Assembly (NCBI GenBank): GCA_009885945.1
Contig: VFJR01000059.1
Span: 1-53,856, forward strand
Origin: Anaerolineaceae bacterium
GTDB taxonomy: Bacteria > Chloroflexota > Anaerolineae > Anaerolineales > Villigracilaceae
Length of the DNA: 53,856 bases
Direction of reading: 5' to 3'
Below the pieces are notes generated by a model. It was not told where the DNA came from and made no database searches. It worked only from the letters and a program-made list of their open reading frames with translations. Each line of letters begins with the position of its first letter. Position 1 is the stretch's first letter. A program made the position numbers and the translations under genes. Of the stretch, positions 9,854 through 37,035 are shown piece after piece.

Positions 9854-10993
9854 ATGGCTTCTGCAGAAATCATTACAATTGGTACTGAAATATTGCTTGG
9901 TGAAATAGTAGACACCAATACGCGCTACATTGCCCGCGCACTGCGCGGCTTGGGCGTGAATTTGTTTCGCACAATCACTATTGGCGATAACACCGAACGC
10001 ATTGCAGCCGAAATTCACGCATCCATGCAGCACACCAATATCATTATTACCACAGGCGGTCTTGGTCCCACTGTAGACGACCCCACACGGGAAGCTGTTG
10101 CCAAAGCCGCAGGTGTTGAAGTTGAATTTCGTGAAGAACTATGGGAGCAAATATCAGCTATATTCGTGCGCTATGGACGCAAACCAACCGAAAATCAAAA
10201 ACGCCAGGCTTATGTTCCAAAAGGCTCCATTGCCTTAAATAATCCAGTCGGCACTGCGCCTTGCTTTATTGTCGAATATCAAAATGCAAATGGCGACGGG
10301 GCGATCATCTCTCTACCGGGTGTGCCAAGCGAAATGGAACATATCCTGCACGAATCTGTGATCCCGTATTTGCAAAAAAAATTCAAGCTTCATGAAATTA
10401 TCAAAGTGCGCTTAATTCGTCTGGCTGGAATTGGCGAGGGAATGATAGACGATAAAATTGGCGACCTAGAAAAACTTACCAACCCCACTGTCGGCTTGGC
10501 TGCGCACAGCGGCGTTGTAGATGTGCGCATTGCCGCTAAGGCAGAAAATGAAACTCAGGCAAATAGTATGATCGCAGAAATTGAGGCGCAAGTTCGCGAA
10601 CGGCTGGGGAGTGCAGTTTTCGGTGTAGATGAAGATACACTGGAAAGCATCACATTCAATGCAGTTGAAAGATGCGGCTGGAAATTGATTCTGCTCGAAA
10701 GCGGATTGCCAGAATCCATAAAACTCAAACTTCCAGGCATCGCTTCACTGCCCCGCCTTCAAGCTGATTCGCTTACTGAAACAGTACGTGCCGCCCAAGC
10801 AAATGCAAACGCAACTGCCGCGCTCGGCATTGTATTATTCCTTGAAGAACGTGTCGCCGAATTTGCAGTACTAACCCCCAATGGTGATGACATAAAACGT
10901 ATCACCTATGGCGGACCTGTAAAAACATTCCCGCGCTGGGTGCTGAGCAATGCGCTTAATGCCTTACGTTTGAAAGCTGAAGAAAAAAATTAA
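9854..10993 (+). CDS. cinA: CinA-like protein (MoCF-biosynthesis domain) with degenerate C-terminal domain
   Basis: Residues 1-170 form a CinA/MoaB-like domain: IITIGTEILLGEIVDTN, ITTGGLGPTVDDPTREAVA, and SLPGVPSEM. In CinA this part carries ADP-ribose or NMN-related pyrophosphatase activity. The middle region (about 170-255) is the linking domain. The C-terminal stretch, from about residue 272, lies where CinA normally has its NMN deamidase, but the usual AESCTGG-like catalytic motif is absent. So deamidase activity is probably lost. It starts 5 nt after the binding-protein stop and overlaps the next gene by one base (TAATG), implying translational coupling. Confidence 0.85.
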   Translation: MASAEIITIGTEILLGEIVDTNTRYIARALRGLGVNLFRTITIGDNTERIAAEIHASMQHTNIIITTGGLGPTVDDPTREAVAKAAGVEVEFREELWEQISAIFVRYGRKPTENQKRQAYVPKGSIALNNPVGTAPCFIVEYQNANGDGAIISLPGVPSEMEHILHESVIPYLQKKFKLHEIIKVRLIRLAGIGEGMIDDKIGDLEKLTNPTVGLAAHSGVVDVRIAAKAENETQANSMIAEIEAQVRERLGSAVFGVDEDTLESITFNAVERCGWKLILLESGLPESIKLKLPGIASLPRLQADSLTETVRAAQANANATAALGIVLFLEERVAEFAVLTPNGDDIKRITYGGPVKTFPRWVLSNALNALRLKAEEKN

Positions 10994-11994
10994 TGACTCG
11001 CAGTAAACCCAAAAAAGACGAACACCTTGTCGCACTGGCTGTTTCTTTACCTCTGCTAGGCTGTATCGCAATCGCCGCTATTGGAATTTTATACTGGACG
11101 CAAACAACTTCTGTTCAGGCAGGCTCGGCGCCTAGTCAGACGATATATTCCAACCCCATTATTAATTCTACAAACACACCACTGCCAACGCCTTACTATC
11201 TGCCTACAGTCACAAGGAACCCACAATCCACAGAAGTAGTGCTTTTAACACCCACACCCTTCACGCTTATTTTTGGACCAAAGCCAATGACAATTGGCGT
11301 ATCTGTTTCAGGCAGGCTGATCGAAGTATATTCCTTCGGCGCTGGCATTGACGAAAGAATGATCATCGCAGGTATTCACGGCGGCTACGAACGCAACACA
11401 ATCGAGCTTGCTGATGAATTGATCAAATATTTTAACGAAAATCCCAGCGCAATTCCAGCAGGCGTAAAGCTATATATTTTACGCAACCTGAATCCAGATG
11501 GCGATGCGCGCGATTATGGTATTGACGGACGCGTAAATGATCATGGCGTGGATTTAAACCGCAACTTCCCCATTAATTGGGCAAAGACCTGGAAAAGGCA
11601 AGGATGTTTCAACTCCACAAAAACAAGCGGCGGACCATCCCCTGCCTCTGAACCTGAAACACAGGCTGTGATAAACTTTTTCAGCACGCACAAGATCAAG
11701 GCTGTAATTAGCTATCACAGTGCCGCCTTAGGCGTATTCCCTGGCGGCGAACCTTGGGAAGCAAACTCCATTCTGCTTGCCAAGGCAATTGCCAAAGCCA
11801 GTAATTACCCCTACCCGCCTATTGACACAGGCTGCGTTTACACTGGCACCCTCGCAGATTTTGCAGTTTCCACAGGCGCCGCCGCAGTAGATATGGAACT
11901 AACAGATCACACGAACACAGATTTTGAAGTCAATAAAAAAGTGCTGCAAGTTTTATTAAATTTTGACTTAACGGAAAACAAAGGAGAAAAATGA
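10993..11994 (+). CDS. Membrane-anchored M14-type zinc carboxypeptidase-like protein
   Basis: A single N-terminal hydrophobic segment (about residues 12-32) is followed by a Pro/Thr-rich linker and an M14-like domain. Visible active-site features are GIHGGYERNT near residue 127 (zinc His and Glu), NPDGDARDYG, the RVNDHGVDLNRNFP motif, VISYHSAALG (third zinc ligand), and a late VDMELTDH supplying the general-base Glu. It should trim peptides or cell-wall peptides outside the membrane. It overlaps cinA by 1 nt and the next gene by 4 nt. The spacing of the first zinc motif (HGGYE) is longer than HxxE, as in some murein-peptide amidase relatives. Confidence 0.82.
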   Translation: MTRSKPKKDEHLVALAVSLPLLGCIAIAAIGILYWTQTTSVQAGSAPSQTIYSNPIINSTNTPLPTPYYLPTVTRNPQSTEVVLLTPTPFTLIFGPKPMTIGVSVSGRLIEVYSFGAGIDERMIIAGIHGGYERNTIELADELIKYFNENPSAIPAGVKLYILRNLNPDGDARDYGIDGRVNDHGVDLNRNFPINWAKTWKRQGCFNSTKTSGGPSPASEPETQAVINFFSTHKIKAVISYHSAALGVFPGGEPWEANSILLAKAIAKASNYPYPPIDTGCVYTGTLADFAVSTGAAAVDMELTDHTNTDFEVNKKVLQVLLNFDLTENKGEK

Positions 11995-13973
11995 CAAAAA
12001 CAGCGGATACCCTCCTCGTCAATGCCCATATCCTCACCATGGATGAAACATTAAATCAATATCGCACTGGCGCCATAGCAATTAGCGGCGAAAAAATTGT
12101 CGCAGTCGGCAACGAAGCCGACATAAAAAGTGAATATACCGCCAAAGAAATCATTGACTGCGGCGGAAAAATTCTTATGCCGGGCTTGATCAACGCCCAC
12201 ACACACGTACCCATGACTCTCCTGCGCGGCTTGGCAGATGACCTGCGGCTTGACGTTTGGCTAATGGGATACATGCTGCCCGTTGAAAGAGAATTCGTCT
12301 CGCCAGAATTTGTTAAACTAGGCACCTCACTCGCCTGCGCAGAACAGATTCGCAGCGGCATCACCACCTTCAACGACATGTATTATTTTGAAGAAGATGT
12401 CGCCAAAGCCACTGTGCAAGCTGGTATGCGCGCTGTGCTTGGGCAAACCGTCATGAAATACCCTGCACCAGATGCAGAATCATTTGAAGTATCGCTTAAC
12501 AAAGCCCGAGAATTTATTCAGGGCTGGAAAAATCACTCACTGATCACCCCCGCCGTATCGCCGCATGCACCCTATAGTTGCACACCAGAAATCTTGCGCG
12601 CAACATCAAATCTTGCACAGGAATTTGACGTTCCCTTACACATCCATATTTCTGAAACTGCCTATGAAGTGGAAACCATGCGCAAGGAAAATGGCATACC
12701 CGTTGTGCCTTACATAAAGAAACACGGCATTTTAGAAGCAAAAGTAATTGCCGCCCATTGTGTTCACATCGACAGCGGCGAAATGCGAACGCTCTTGCAT
12801 GCAGGCGCGGGCATATCTCATAACCCATCATCAAATTTAAAACTTGCCTCTGGGTTTGCGCCAGTGCAAAAAATGCTTGAAAGCGGATTAAATGTTGGCA
12901 TCGGCACAGATGGACCCGCCTCCAATAATGACCTTGACATGTTTGAAGAGATCCGCCTCGCCTCTTTCGTCGCCAAAGCTGTTTCCAACGACCCAACCGT
13001 TGTCCCCGCTGTAACAGCCCTTCTTATGGCTACCCGCATGGGCGCAAAGGCTCTTCACCTTGGGGATGTGACTGGCTCTCTCGAAGTTGGCAAACGCGCC
13101 GACATCATTCTTGTGGATATCATGCCTTTACATAATGCTCCACGCTTCATGCGTGACTTAAACAATGCCTATGCTCAACTAGTCTATGCCTCCAAATCCA
13201 CAGATGTAACAGATGTGATGGTTAATGGCAAATGGTTAATGCGCTCGAAGAAATTACTAACCTTGAATGAAACCGACTTACTTGAACATGCCCAGGATAT
13301 GGCAAAGAAAATAGATATCTTTCTGATCGAACGCGAGCAATCTGTGTTATCCAAATTGATCGCGTTAGGCGGATCACTGGAAGAAGAATCCTTTGAAGTG
13401 CAAACCAAAGTTAGAGTTTCTAACCCCGGCACAGTCAGCGAAAAAATACAACAACCAGAAATTGAGATCATCCGCTTTAGGCATTACATAGAACATGATG
13501 CGTATTTCTCCTTTGACGATGAAAAACAAGGTCGCCTACGCTTTCGTGAAGATGATTTTCTCGATGAAAAAGGAAATACCACCAACACGCGCAGCAGGCT
13601 GACCTTGCTGGGCGTAAAACGTGAAGATAAAGTAGCAGACAATGTAGTTCTTTCACGCAGTCGCTTTTTTGCTCCTGCTATTCACAGCCTGCGCTTTTAT
13701 AAGGAATATTTCAAGCCACAACAAGAAGTTAATATTGAAAAAGACCGCTTGCGCTGGTTAATTCGCTACAAAGACACAGAGTTTTTCGTCAATCTCGATA
13801 AGATCATCCAGCCCGCCGCAGGTCACTTCCTCGAGATCAAATCGCGCACCTGGAGCCGCACAGACGCAGAACATAAAGCAGAACTGGTTAATGAGCTGCT
13901 TGAATTGCTCGGTCAAAAAAATGCGCCGACAGTGACACAAGATTATATTGAGTTTATTACTACGCAACCCTAA
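11991..13973 (+). CDS. Amidohydrolase (SAH/MTA deaminase-like) fused to a CYTH-like domain
   Basis: Residues 1-440 form a metal-dependent deaminase of the MtaD/S-adenosylhomocysteine deaminase group. Metal ligands are visible: H70 and H72 in NAHTH, SPHAPYSC, HIHISET, AAHCVH and GTDGPASNN. From about residue 466 to 655 comes a second domain beginning FEVQTKVRV, a variant of the CYTH ExExK motif. It continues with LRFREDD, SRLTLLG, RWLIRYKD and HFLEIKSRTW, the alternating Arg/Lys/Glu pattern of triphosphate-tunnel enzymes. CYTH enzymes act on triphosphates or as class IV adenylate cyclases. A single 660-residue chain joining the two is unusual. It overlaps the M14 gene by ATGA. Confidence 0.82.
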   Translation: MTKTADTLLVNAHILTMDETLNQYRTGAIAISGEKIVAVGNEADIKSEYTAKEIIDCGGKILMPGLINAHTHVPMTLLRGLADDLRLDVWLMGYMLPVEREFVSPEFVKLGTSLACAEQIRSGITTFNDMYYFEEDVAKATVQAGMRAVLGQTVMKYPAPDAESFEVSLNKAREFIQGWKNHSLITPAVSPHAPYSCTPEILRATSNLAQEFDVPLHIHISETAYEVETMRKENGIPVVPYIKKHGILEAKVIAAHCVHIDSGEMRTLLHAGAGISHNPSSNLKLASGFAPVQKMLESGLNVGIGTDGPASNNDLDMFEEIRLASFVAKAVSNDPTVVPAVTALLMATRMGAKALHLGDVTGSLEVGKRADIILVDIMPLHNAPRFMRDLNNAYAQLVYASKSTDVTDVMVNGKWLMRSKKLLTLNETDLLEHAQDMAKKIDIFLIEREQSVLSKLIALGGSLEEESFEVQTKVRVSNPGTVSEKIQQPEIEIIRFRHYIEHDAYFSFDDEKQGRLRFREDDFLDEKGNTTNTRSRLTLLGVKREDKVADNVVLSRSRFFAPAIHSLRFYKEYFKPQQEVNIEKDRLRWLIRYKDTEFFVNLDKIIQPAAGHFLEIKSRTWSRTDAEHKAELVNELLELLGQKNAPTVTQDYIEFITTQP

Positions 13974-15856: not shown

Positions 15857-16225
15857 CTATTCTTTACTGGTTTCATATTCCAGCACATGAAGTATGGCGA
15901 GTATAACGCCATCCATATTTTTCGTCACTTCGTTGTTCCAAAAGCGGATCACTTTGTAGCCGATAGAGTTCAGGTATTTTGTTCTTTCCAGATCGTACTC
16001 TTCCTGTTCCAAATGCTGACTTCCATCCAGTTCGATGATGAGTTTCTTTTCGATGCAGACAAAATCGGGAATGTATTTGCCGATGGCGTGCTGCCTTCTA
16101 AAGTTGACTTCTAACTGGTCATTGCGGATAATTACCCACAATTTTCGCTCGGCGGGTGTAGGTTCTTTGCGGAGTTCGATGGCGTGAGTTCTGGTTTTTG
16201 GGTTGCTTCTGGGTGGGCGTGGCAA
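15857..16225 (-). CDS. DUF559 endonuclease-like protein
   Basis: This is a small protein of about 122 residues with the DUF559 (Vsr-like, PD-(D/E)xK) pattern: LRKEPTPAERKLW, FRRQHAIGKYIPDFVC, KLIIELDGSQH and YKVIRFWNNEV. The D and E-x-D residues fit a nuclease core, but no substrate is known for the family. I prefer a TTG start at 16225 because GGAGGGG lies 5 nt upstream (minus strand); the longer frame to 16246 would put that site inside the coding region. It stands alone, about 100 nt from VF530. Confidence 0.82.
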   Translation of the reverse strand: MPRPPRSNPKTRTHAIELRKEPTPAERKLWVIIRNDQLEVNFRRQHAIGKYIPDFVCIEKKLIIELDGSQHLEQEEYDLERTKYLNSIGYKVIRFWNNEVTKNMDGVILAILHVLEYETSKE

Positions 16226-16298
16226 TTCTTCCCCTCCTAGCCTCAAACGGCAAGTATCCGCCCCCGCCGTGACTCAACCCTCGCCACCACGCAGTAAA

Positions 16299-36195: not shown

Positions 36196-37035
36196 ATGCA
36201 CACTCAATTCATGACAATAGAACAAATTCAAGAAACTGCGCAGGCTATTCGTATGCGCACAAAACATAAACCAACTGTAGGTATCATTCTCGGTTCGGGG
36301 CTAAACGAGTTGGCTGATTCCGTCCAAAAGGCAGATTCTATGCTCTTCAGTGAAGCGCCTAATTTCCCAGTCTCTACAGTTTATGGGCACAGCGGAAAAT
36401 TGGTCATTGGCGAACTGGAAAACCAGATCGTTTATGTAATGCGTGGACGCATTCATTTTTACGAAGGCTACAGTATGAGTCAAATCACCTTGCCTGTACG
36501 GGTAATGAAATTACTGGGCGTGGAAACATTAATTGTAACCAATGCCGCCGGCGGTGTAAATTCAGAATTCAACCCCGGCGATGTTATGTTAATCACAGAT
36601 CATTTAAATTTAATGGGTATGACGGGATTTAATCCGCTGATAGGACCTAACCTCGAAGAGTTTGGCACACGCTTCCCGGATATGAGCCAAGCGTACGATC
36701 GTGAATTATCCGATACAGCAAGGCGTGTTGCAAAGGAAAATAATATCAATTTACGCGAAGGTGTATACGCTGGATTGAGCGGTCCTTCATTTGAATCTCC
36801 AGCAGACTTGCGCTTCCTAAAAACAGCAGGTGCTGATTCTGTCGGCATGTCCACAGTACCAGAGGTAATTGTAGCCCGTCACAGCAACATGCGCGTGCTT
36901 GGTCTTTCCGGGATTAGTAATAAAGCTAATTTAGACGGTTCAACAACCACAACCCATGAAGAAGTTATGGAAGCAGGAAAAATCATTACACCGAAAATGG
37001 AAAAGATCGTTCGTGGGGTTTTACGATCACTTTAA
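36196..37035 (+). CDS. Purine nucleoside phosphorylase
   Basis: This is a 279-residue trimeric-type PNP for inosine and guanosine. Visible motifs are ILGSGLNELAD, GHSGKLVIGEL, GRIHFYEGYSM, VTNAAGGVN, GLSGPSFESPADLRFL (purine-binding Glu), VGMSTVPEVIVARH and SGISNKA. It splits purine nucleosides with phosphate to base and ribose-1-phosphate. A second possible start is the Met five codons in. It leads a plus-strand run with three small gaps (3-20 nt) to the next genes, so they are probably co-transcribed. Confidence 0.93.
   Translation: MHTQFMTIEQIQETAQAIRMRTKHKPTVGIILGSGLNELADSVQKADSMLFSEAPNFPVSTVYGHSGKLVIGELENQIVYVMRGRIHFYEGYSMSQITLPVRVMKLLGVETLIVTNAAGGVNSEFNPGDVMLITDHLNLMGMTGFNPLIGPNLEEFGTRFPDMSQAYDRELSDTARRVAKENNINLREGVYAGLSGPSFESPADLRFLKTAGADSVGMSTVPEVIVARHSNMRVLGLSGISNKANLDGSTTTTHEEVMEAGKIITPKMEKIVRGVLRSL

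Follow-up and report, generated by a model that had tools for sequence, protein, structure and literature searches.

The window, the whole stretch of DNA analyzed here, is 53,856 nt long (contig VFJR01000059.1 of the Anaerolineaceae bacterium assembly GCA_009885945.1). On its forward strand, a CinA-like gene, an M14 zinc carboxypeptidase-like gene, and a gene for a 660-aa fusion protein follow one another. As the initial annotation had proposed, the last of these is a single frame that unites an amidohydrolase with a CYTH-like domain. Its start lies within the final codons of the M14 gene; the overlap that had been reported for the two genes is 4 bases, and that between the M14 and CinA-like genes is 1 base. 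The genes and domains are as follows.

9854–10993, + strand: CinA-like gene (MoCF_biosynth and CinA_KH), upstream of the fusion gene and in the same orientation across much of the order
10993–11994, + strand: M14 zinc carboxypeptidase-like gene, with a hydrophobic segment at the N-terminus of its product; 4-base overlap with the fusion gene
11991–13973, + strand: fusion gene for the amidohydrolase-CYTH protein; ATG start, 660 aa, single open frame, with full-length orthologues
11991–13310, + strand: amidohydrolase (deaminase-type) domain, residues 1–440 (Pfam Amidohydro_1; NCBIfam PRK09045; Foldseek 4F0R)
13269–13364, + strand: linker helices, residues 427–458, with conserved F444, R448, E449, and K455 (AlphaFold2 model and conservation)
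13386–13970, + strand: CYTH/TTM domain, residues 466–660 (Pfam CYTH in 21 of 36 orthologues; AlphaFold2; TTM structures)

The CinA-like protein has MoCF and KH domains and no Pfam CinA C-terminal deamidase domain. Beyond the fusion gene, on the minus strand, a small ORF (15857–16246) was recognized by eye as resembling DUF559-type endonuclease-like proteins.

What is the N-terminal half? Residues 61–416 match Pfam Amidohydro_1 (E 1.1e-75). The best NCBIfam model is the TRZ/ATZ hydrolase PRK09045 (E 1.9e-139), with 465 bits, under the curated cut-off of 540. PRK15493 scores 296.6 bits against a curated cut-off of 779, and the other NCBIfam nucleoside deaminase models that match also fall below their cut-offs. 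By curated score, neither PRK09045 nor PRK15493 assigns the protein to MTA/SAH deaminases at the equivalog level. The closest solved structures by sequence are MTA/SAH/adenosine deaminases, at about 40% identity. An AlphaFold2 model of the full-length protein, built with 63 orthologues, has a pLDDT of 88.8 and a pTM of 0.87; a Foldseek search with its first domain gives 4F0R as the best match (E 1.4e-42, target TM 0.94), with further matches to 4GBD (with methylthio-coformycin), 4DYK, and 3LNP. Conservation was scored on an alignment of 100 orthologues, in which H70, H72, E99, R147, H192, H219, E222, H256, and D307 are invariant. The set of metal and catalytic residues (H70, H72, H219, E222, H256, and D307), whose metal ligands had been recognized by eye, is thus complete in 100 of 100 orthologues. 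With its TIM barrel and its set of HxH, His, His, and Asp residues, the domain belongs to the cog0402-like deaminase subgroup of the amidohydrolase superfamily. The main positions, each conserved in 100/100 orthologues, are:

12198–12206, + strand: H70-x-H72 metal ligands
12285–12287, + strand: E99, candidate ribose-binding Glu
12645–12656, + strand: H219 and E222, metal/catalytic residues
12756–12758, + strand: H256
12909–12911, + strand: D307, metal ligand

We take E99 to be the equivalent of a TM0936 residue, which makes it a candidate for ribose binding. The segment ADDLRLDVWLM (residues 82–92; 12234–12266) hardly varies, although confidence in the model is lowest there; it is probably a mobile active-site loop particular to this fusion family. 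The earlier suggestion that the first domain acts on an adenosine derivative is supported as a predicted activity, with 4F0R and 4GBD as the nearest structures.

The C-terminal half is harder to recognize. In the window copy, Pfam recognizes no family in the last 197 residues, and their match to NCBIfam cyaB is weak and sub-threshold (E 8e-5). Pfam CYTH does match 21 of 36 diverse orthologous domains, with a best E of 2.9e-8. A sequence search of the PDB with a CYTH profile gave no match, so the fold is assigned only from structure prediction and from the Pfam matches of relatives. The AlphaFold2 model of residues 442–660 (pLDDT 87.3, pTM 0.83) matches PH1819 (Z 18.0), SaTTM with triphosphate (Z 17.6), a class IV adenylyl cyclase (Z 16), ygiF (Z 14.2), and mouse ThTPase (Z 14.2). 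Because of these TTM matches and the Pfam matches in orthologues, the model indicates a real CYTH domain, even though the window copy lies below Pfam detection; the predicted tunnel fold and, by way of the orthologues, Pfam membership place it in the CYTH/TTM superfamily. Thus, the comparison of residues 440–660 with CYTH structures that had been proposed as a check returned a predicted TTM fold, and the variant motif EVQTK, said to lie near a domain start at about residue 466, is found at residues 469–473.

Invariant residues in this half, among the same 100 orthologues, are E469, Q471, K473, D503, Y505, R517, R519, D521, R568, F569, Y570, E572, Y573, K584, R586, R588, D603, E615, K617, W621, and D625. 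They cluster in the following motifs.

13395–13409, + strand: variant motif E469-V-Q471-T-K473, ExQxK for ExExK; 100/100, opposite EIEAK of a canonical CYTH
13497–13505, + strand: D503-x-Y505, fitting the DxY phosphate-water motif (PMC8233210); 100/100
13539–13553, + strand: R517-x-R519-E-D phosphate-binding strand; R517, R519, and D521 100/100
13692–13712, + strand: R568-F-Y-x-E-Y-F helix, the family signature; 99–100/100 per fixed position
13740–13754, + strand: K584-x-R586-x-R588; 100/100
13833–13853, + strand: E615-x-K617-x-R-T-W, Lys for the second Glu of ExE; E615, K617, and W621 100/100, opposite FVEIE

In an hhalign comparison with one canonical CYTH protein of the same genome, whose probability was not significant, EVQTK stands opposite EIEAK and FLEIK opposite FVEIE; a second CYTH protein of that genome, with an ExE ending, aligns over the C-terminal part with E 2.6e-4. 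All 100 orthologues have ExQxK in place of the ExExK hallmark and ExK in place of the ExE of active TTM triphosphatases and ThTPases. In ygiF, Glu4, Glu6, and Glu162 hold metal 2, the activator of the attacking water, and Glu160 holds metal 1 (PMC4641920); the second Glu of ExE is required for metal 2 in TTMs and ThTPases (PMC8233210). By the published TTM mechanism, then, Gln and Lys replace two of the three ligands and the catalytic metal-2 site would be lost. The phosphate-binding residues are kept: K473, together with the RxR, DxY, and KxR motifs (R517, R519, D503, Y505, K584, and R586, each 100/100). Class IV cyclases are marked by an HF motif and ExA, and ThTPases by W/YxRxR (PMC8233210). 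The first class is rejected here, as HFxxxxExExK and ExA are absent (L463-E464, ExQxK, and ExK instead), and so is the second, as the ThTPase Trp position, 515, is Arg. With Gln and Lys at metal 2, no HF, and Arg at position 515, the domain fits none of the characterized active classes by published motif criteria. Hence, the triphosphatase activity for which the initial annotation had proposed an assay is unlikely, two of the three metal-2 ligands being invariably replaced (PMC4641920, PMC8233210).

How widespread is the fusion? A full-length match (residues 1–657 or nearly so) is present in 57 of 61 genomes, a set of 60 relatives plus the window's own. Of 298 class genomes, 181 carry the CYTH part; in a sample of 350 genomes from across Chloroflexota, which takes in families outside the class, 75 do. 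It nearly always lies within one open frame of about 650–750 aa; an earlier call to look for other proteins of this architecture is thus answered by orthologous fusions in all three sets. The deaminase half, at E <= 1e-95, occurs in 187 of the same 298 class genomes, against 181 with the CYTH part, so the two parts almost always travel together. The surplus genomes include weak matches (E about 1e-98 to 1e-114), which are probably unfused paralogues, and in at least one (G166) the deaminase-half match without a CYTH part sits near a contig start. No stand-alone C-terminal domain was found; the two short frames inspected (L204 and L219) end at contig ends. A scan of 84,980 genomes gave 544 relatives, and the best 80 of the 544 carry only Chloroflexota-type names, the named organisms among them being Anaerolineae/Anaerolineales and other Chloroflexi. 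Because the two halves co-occur in single frames across genomes, and the short frames are cut by contig ends, the fusion can be regarded as old and stable and not as an error.

The neighbors of the fusion gene shift with lineage, yet nucleoside phosphorylases recur. Of 80 named Anaerolineales loci, 62 have a CinA-like gene upstream in the same orientation and 50 have the M14 gene there. In the window's own family (15 loci), 11 have CinA and 11 have M14; in other families of that order (20 loci), 8 have CinA and none has M14. Hence, the reported linkage to CinA holds across much of the order, whereas that to M14 seldom extends beyond the family of the window and its close relatives, and M14 can be set aside as an essential partner. 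In 13 of 20 loci mainly outside the class, a dephospho-CoA kinase gene is directly downstream on the same strand (L197, L201–L204, L206–L208, and L210 among them). In eight loci (L076, L079, L081, L093–L095, L098, and L100), a gene near the fusion gene encodes a protein that combines an FHA domain with a DNA-binding domain of the winged-helix, response-regulator type. By NCBIfam assignment, a pyrimidine-nucleoside phosphorylase (PyNP) gene adjoins the fusion gene divergently in nine loci of the order and class sets (L029, L036, L037, L038, L039, L041, L042, L086, and L103), and an MTA phosphorylase (MTAP) gene adjoins it convergently in four class loci from several families (L064, L069, L070, and L072). 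Coordinate comparison adds more MTAP neighbors, e.g., in genomes G099, G108, G130, and G200. The link to nucleoside salvage that had been suggested thus gains support from relatives. MTAP and PyNP lie on the strand opposite the fusion gene and are therefore not operon partners.

Which nucleoside is the substrate? The window's genome encodes an S-adenosylhomocysteine hydrolase above cut-off, with an HVTTE segment, and AhcY of the HxTxE type prefers SAH over S-inosylhomocysteine (PMC10978960). With an SAH-type AhcY in the same genome, salvage of SAH by deamination is not required, and SAH is rejected as an obligate substrate. As the main substrate, a role that the initial annotation had allowed for, it becomes less likely for the same reason (PMC10978960). 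Because such salvage is not required, MTA, 5′-deoxyadenosine, or adenosine would be likelier substrates than SAH. The genome also has an MTA/SAH nucleosidase homologue and MtnA. No MTA phosphorylase above cut-off was found in it; the best match is an inosine/guanosine purine-nucleoside phosphorylase (TIGR01700, above cut-off) on the same contig, at 36196–37035 on the + strand of the window.

What, then, might the CYTH domain do? The reading that we favor, with about even confidence, is that the protein is a 5′-modified-adenosine deaminase with a triphosphate-binding, probably non-hydrolyzing CYTH regulatory domain. The zinc-type amidohydrolase would deaminate adenosine or a 5′-modified adenosine (methylthioadenosine, 5′-deoxyadenosine, adenosine, or S-adenosylhomocysteine). 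The permanently fused CYTH domain would retain its triphosphate-binding tunnel minus two of the three catalytic-metal ligands, would most likely bind triphosphate or another polyphosphate without hydrolyzing it, and may tune the deaminase or position the protein. From the residues, we most directly infer that the domain holds a triphosphate-like ligand without the usual hydrolysis, because the metal-2 residues are replaced and the phosphate-contact residues are kept. The triphosphate binding that the initial annotation had expected is thus plausible, with catalysis at the tunnel probably lost, and the nucleotide sensing that it had suggested may be its role. The same fusion, with the same residue changes, in hundreds of Chloroflexota suggests a sensor or partner domain and not an accident. 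Some points run counter to this reading. The best deaminase family model stays under its curated cut-off (465 versus 540 bits). The steady neighbors, CinA in the window's order and dephospho-CoA kinase mostly outside the class, give no clear pointer to nucleoside salvage. Finally, Lys in place of Glu could serve a different chemistry.

Indeed, the protein could be a bifunctional enzyme, in which an active CYTH phosphohydrolase or phosphotransferase, using metal 1 and Lys617 in place of metal 2, would act in series with the deaminase. All 100 orthologues share the tunnel residues, K617 included, a degree of conservation that an active site would show. Activity on pyrophosphate is reported for plant TTM1/2, which have neither ExExK nor ExE, and class IV adenylyl cyclases likewise do without the second Glu of ExE (PMC8233210). 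However, mutating the equivalent Glu residues strongly cuts activity in AtTTM3 and ygiF (PMC4641920), and with L-E at 463–464 in place of HF and R in place of an aromatic at 515, no characterized active class fits. A bifunctional enzyme is therefore a credible but unlikely explanation. Less likely still is a CYTH domain that binds no small molecule and has a structural or protein-interaction role, like the TTM-like Mediator subunits. Med18 and Med20 chains are indeed among the fold matches of the C-terminal model (Z about 10 to 13), and the conserved RFYxEYF helix and linker residues could form an interface, but invariance falls on the tunnel residues (ExQxK, RxR, DxY, KxR, and ExK), which need not be retained in a mere scaffold. 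The chance that the fusion arose as an artefact of assembly or reading frame is practically nil: the nearest thing to support is a few short frames (L204 and L219), explained by contig ends, and a single frame spans both halves in 57 of the 61 relatives and in hundreds more genomes that were assembled independently, which excludes both a sequencing frame error and a chimeric assembly.

What are the functional implications of the favored reading, a deaminase with a ligand-binding, non-hydrolyzing CYTH domain? Most of what is known of CYTH/TTM domains concerns enzymes, often paired with CHAD or kinase domains. In the fusion protein, the catalytic metal site of a CYTH domain appears replaced and its phosphate-binding residues frozen, and the fusion to a deaminase is kept in at least two class-rank lineages of one phylum. 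This is a clear and testable example of a TTM that may have become a ligand sensor, and it gives a defined hypothesis to a gene common in uncultured Chloroflexota. Tripolyphosphate is an intermediate in S-adenosylmethionine synthesis. A more speculative proposal, to which we attach little probability, is that the tunnel is catalytically dead, responds to tripolyphosphate or ATP, and controls how fast adenosine-type by-products of S-adenosylmethionine use are deaminated, across Chloroflexota. If true, the start and the end of S-adenosylmethionine metabolism would be tied within one polypeptide. A literature search found no paper on this amidohydrolase-CYTH fusion. Both fold families were known before; the literature searched appears to contain no description of the architecture or of the CYTH subtype, and what seems new is the phylum-wide conservation together with the invariant ExQxK/ExK pattern.

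How does the protein compare with known systems? First, it shares with the MTA/SAH/adenosine deaminases (4F0R/4F0S of Chromobacterium violaceum, 4GBD/4DYK of Pseudomonas aeruginosa, and PRK09045) a common fold (target TM 0.94–0.96), about 40% identity, and the invariant metal and catalytic residues. Those enzymes stop near residue 440, whereas the fusion protein continues with a CYTH domain, has its own active-site loop (ADDLRLDVWL), and scores below the PRK09045 cut-off. Second, it has in common with the CYTH/TTM phosphohydrolases (SaTTM, ygiF, and AtTTM3; PF01928) the eight-stranded tunnel fold, the first Glu and the Lys of ExExK, RxR, DxY, KxR, and the first Glu of ExE. Unlike them, it is fused to an amidohydrolase, and in every orthologue the second Glu is Gln in ExExK and Lys in ExE, so the metal-2 site is predicted to be disrupted. 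Third, class IV adenylyl cyclase (CyaB) has a like fold (Z 16 for Y. pestis CyaB) and gives the weak NCBIfam match, but the fusion protein lacks the HF motif, keeps the first Arg of RxR, and has ExK, not ExA. Fourth, plant TTM1/2 (kinase-TTM, PDB 7Z67; Z 14.8) are also two-domain proteins whose TTM lacks the canonical acidic motifs; their partner is a phosphoribulokinase-type kinase domain rather than an amidohydrolase, and no close sequence relation to them was seen.
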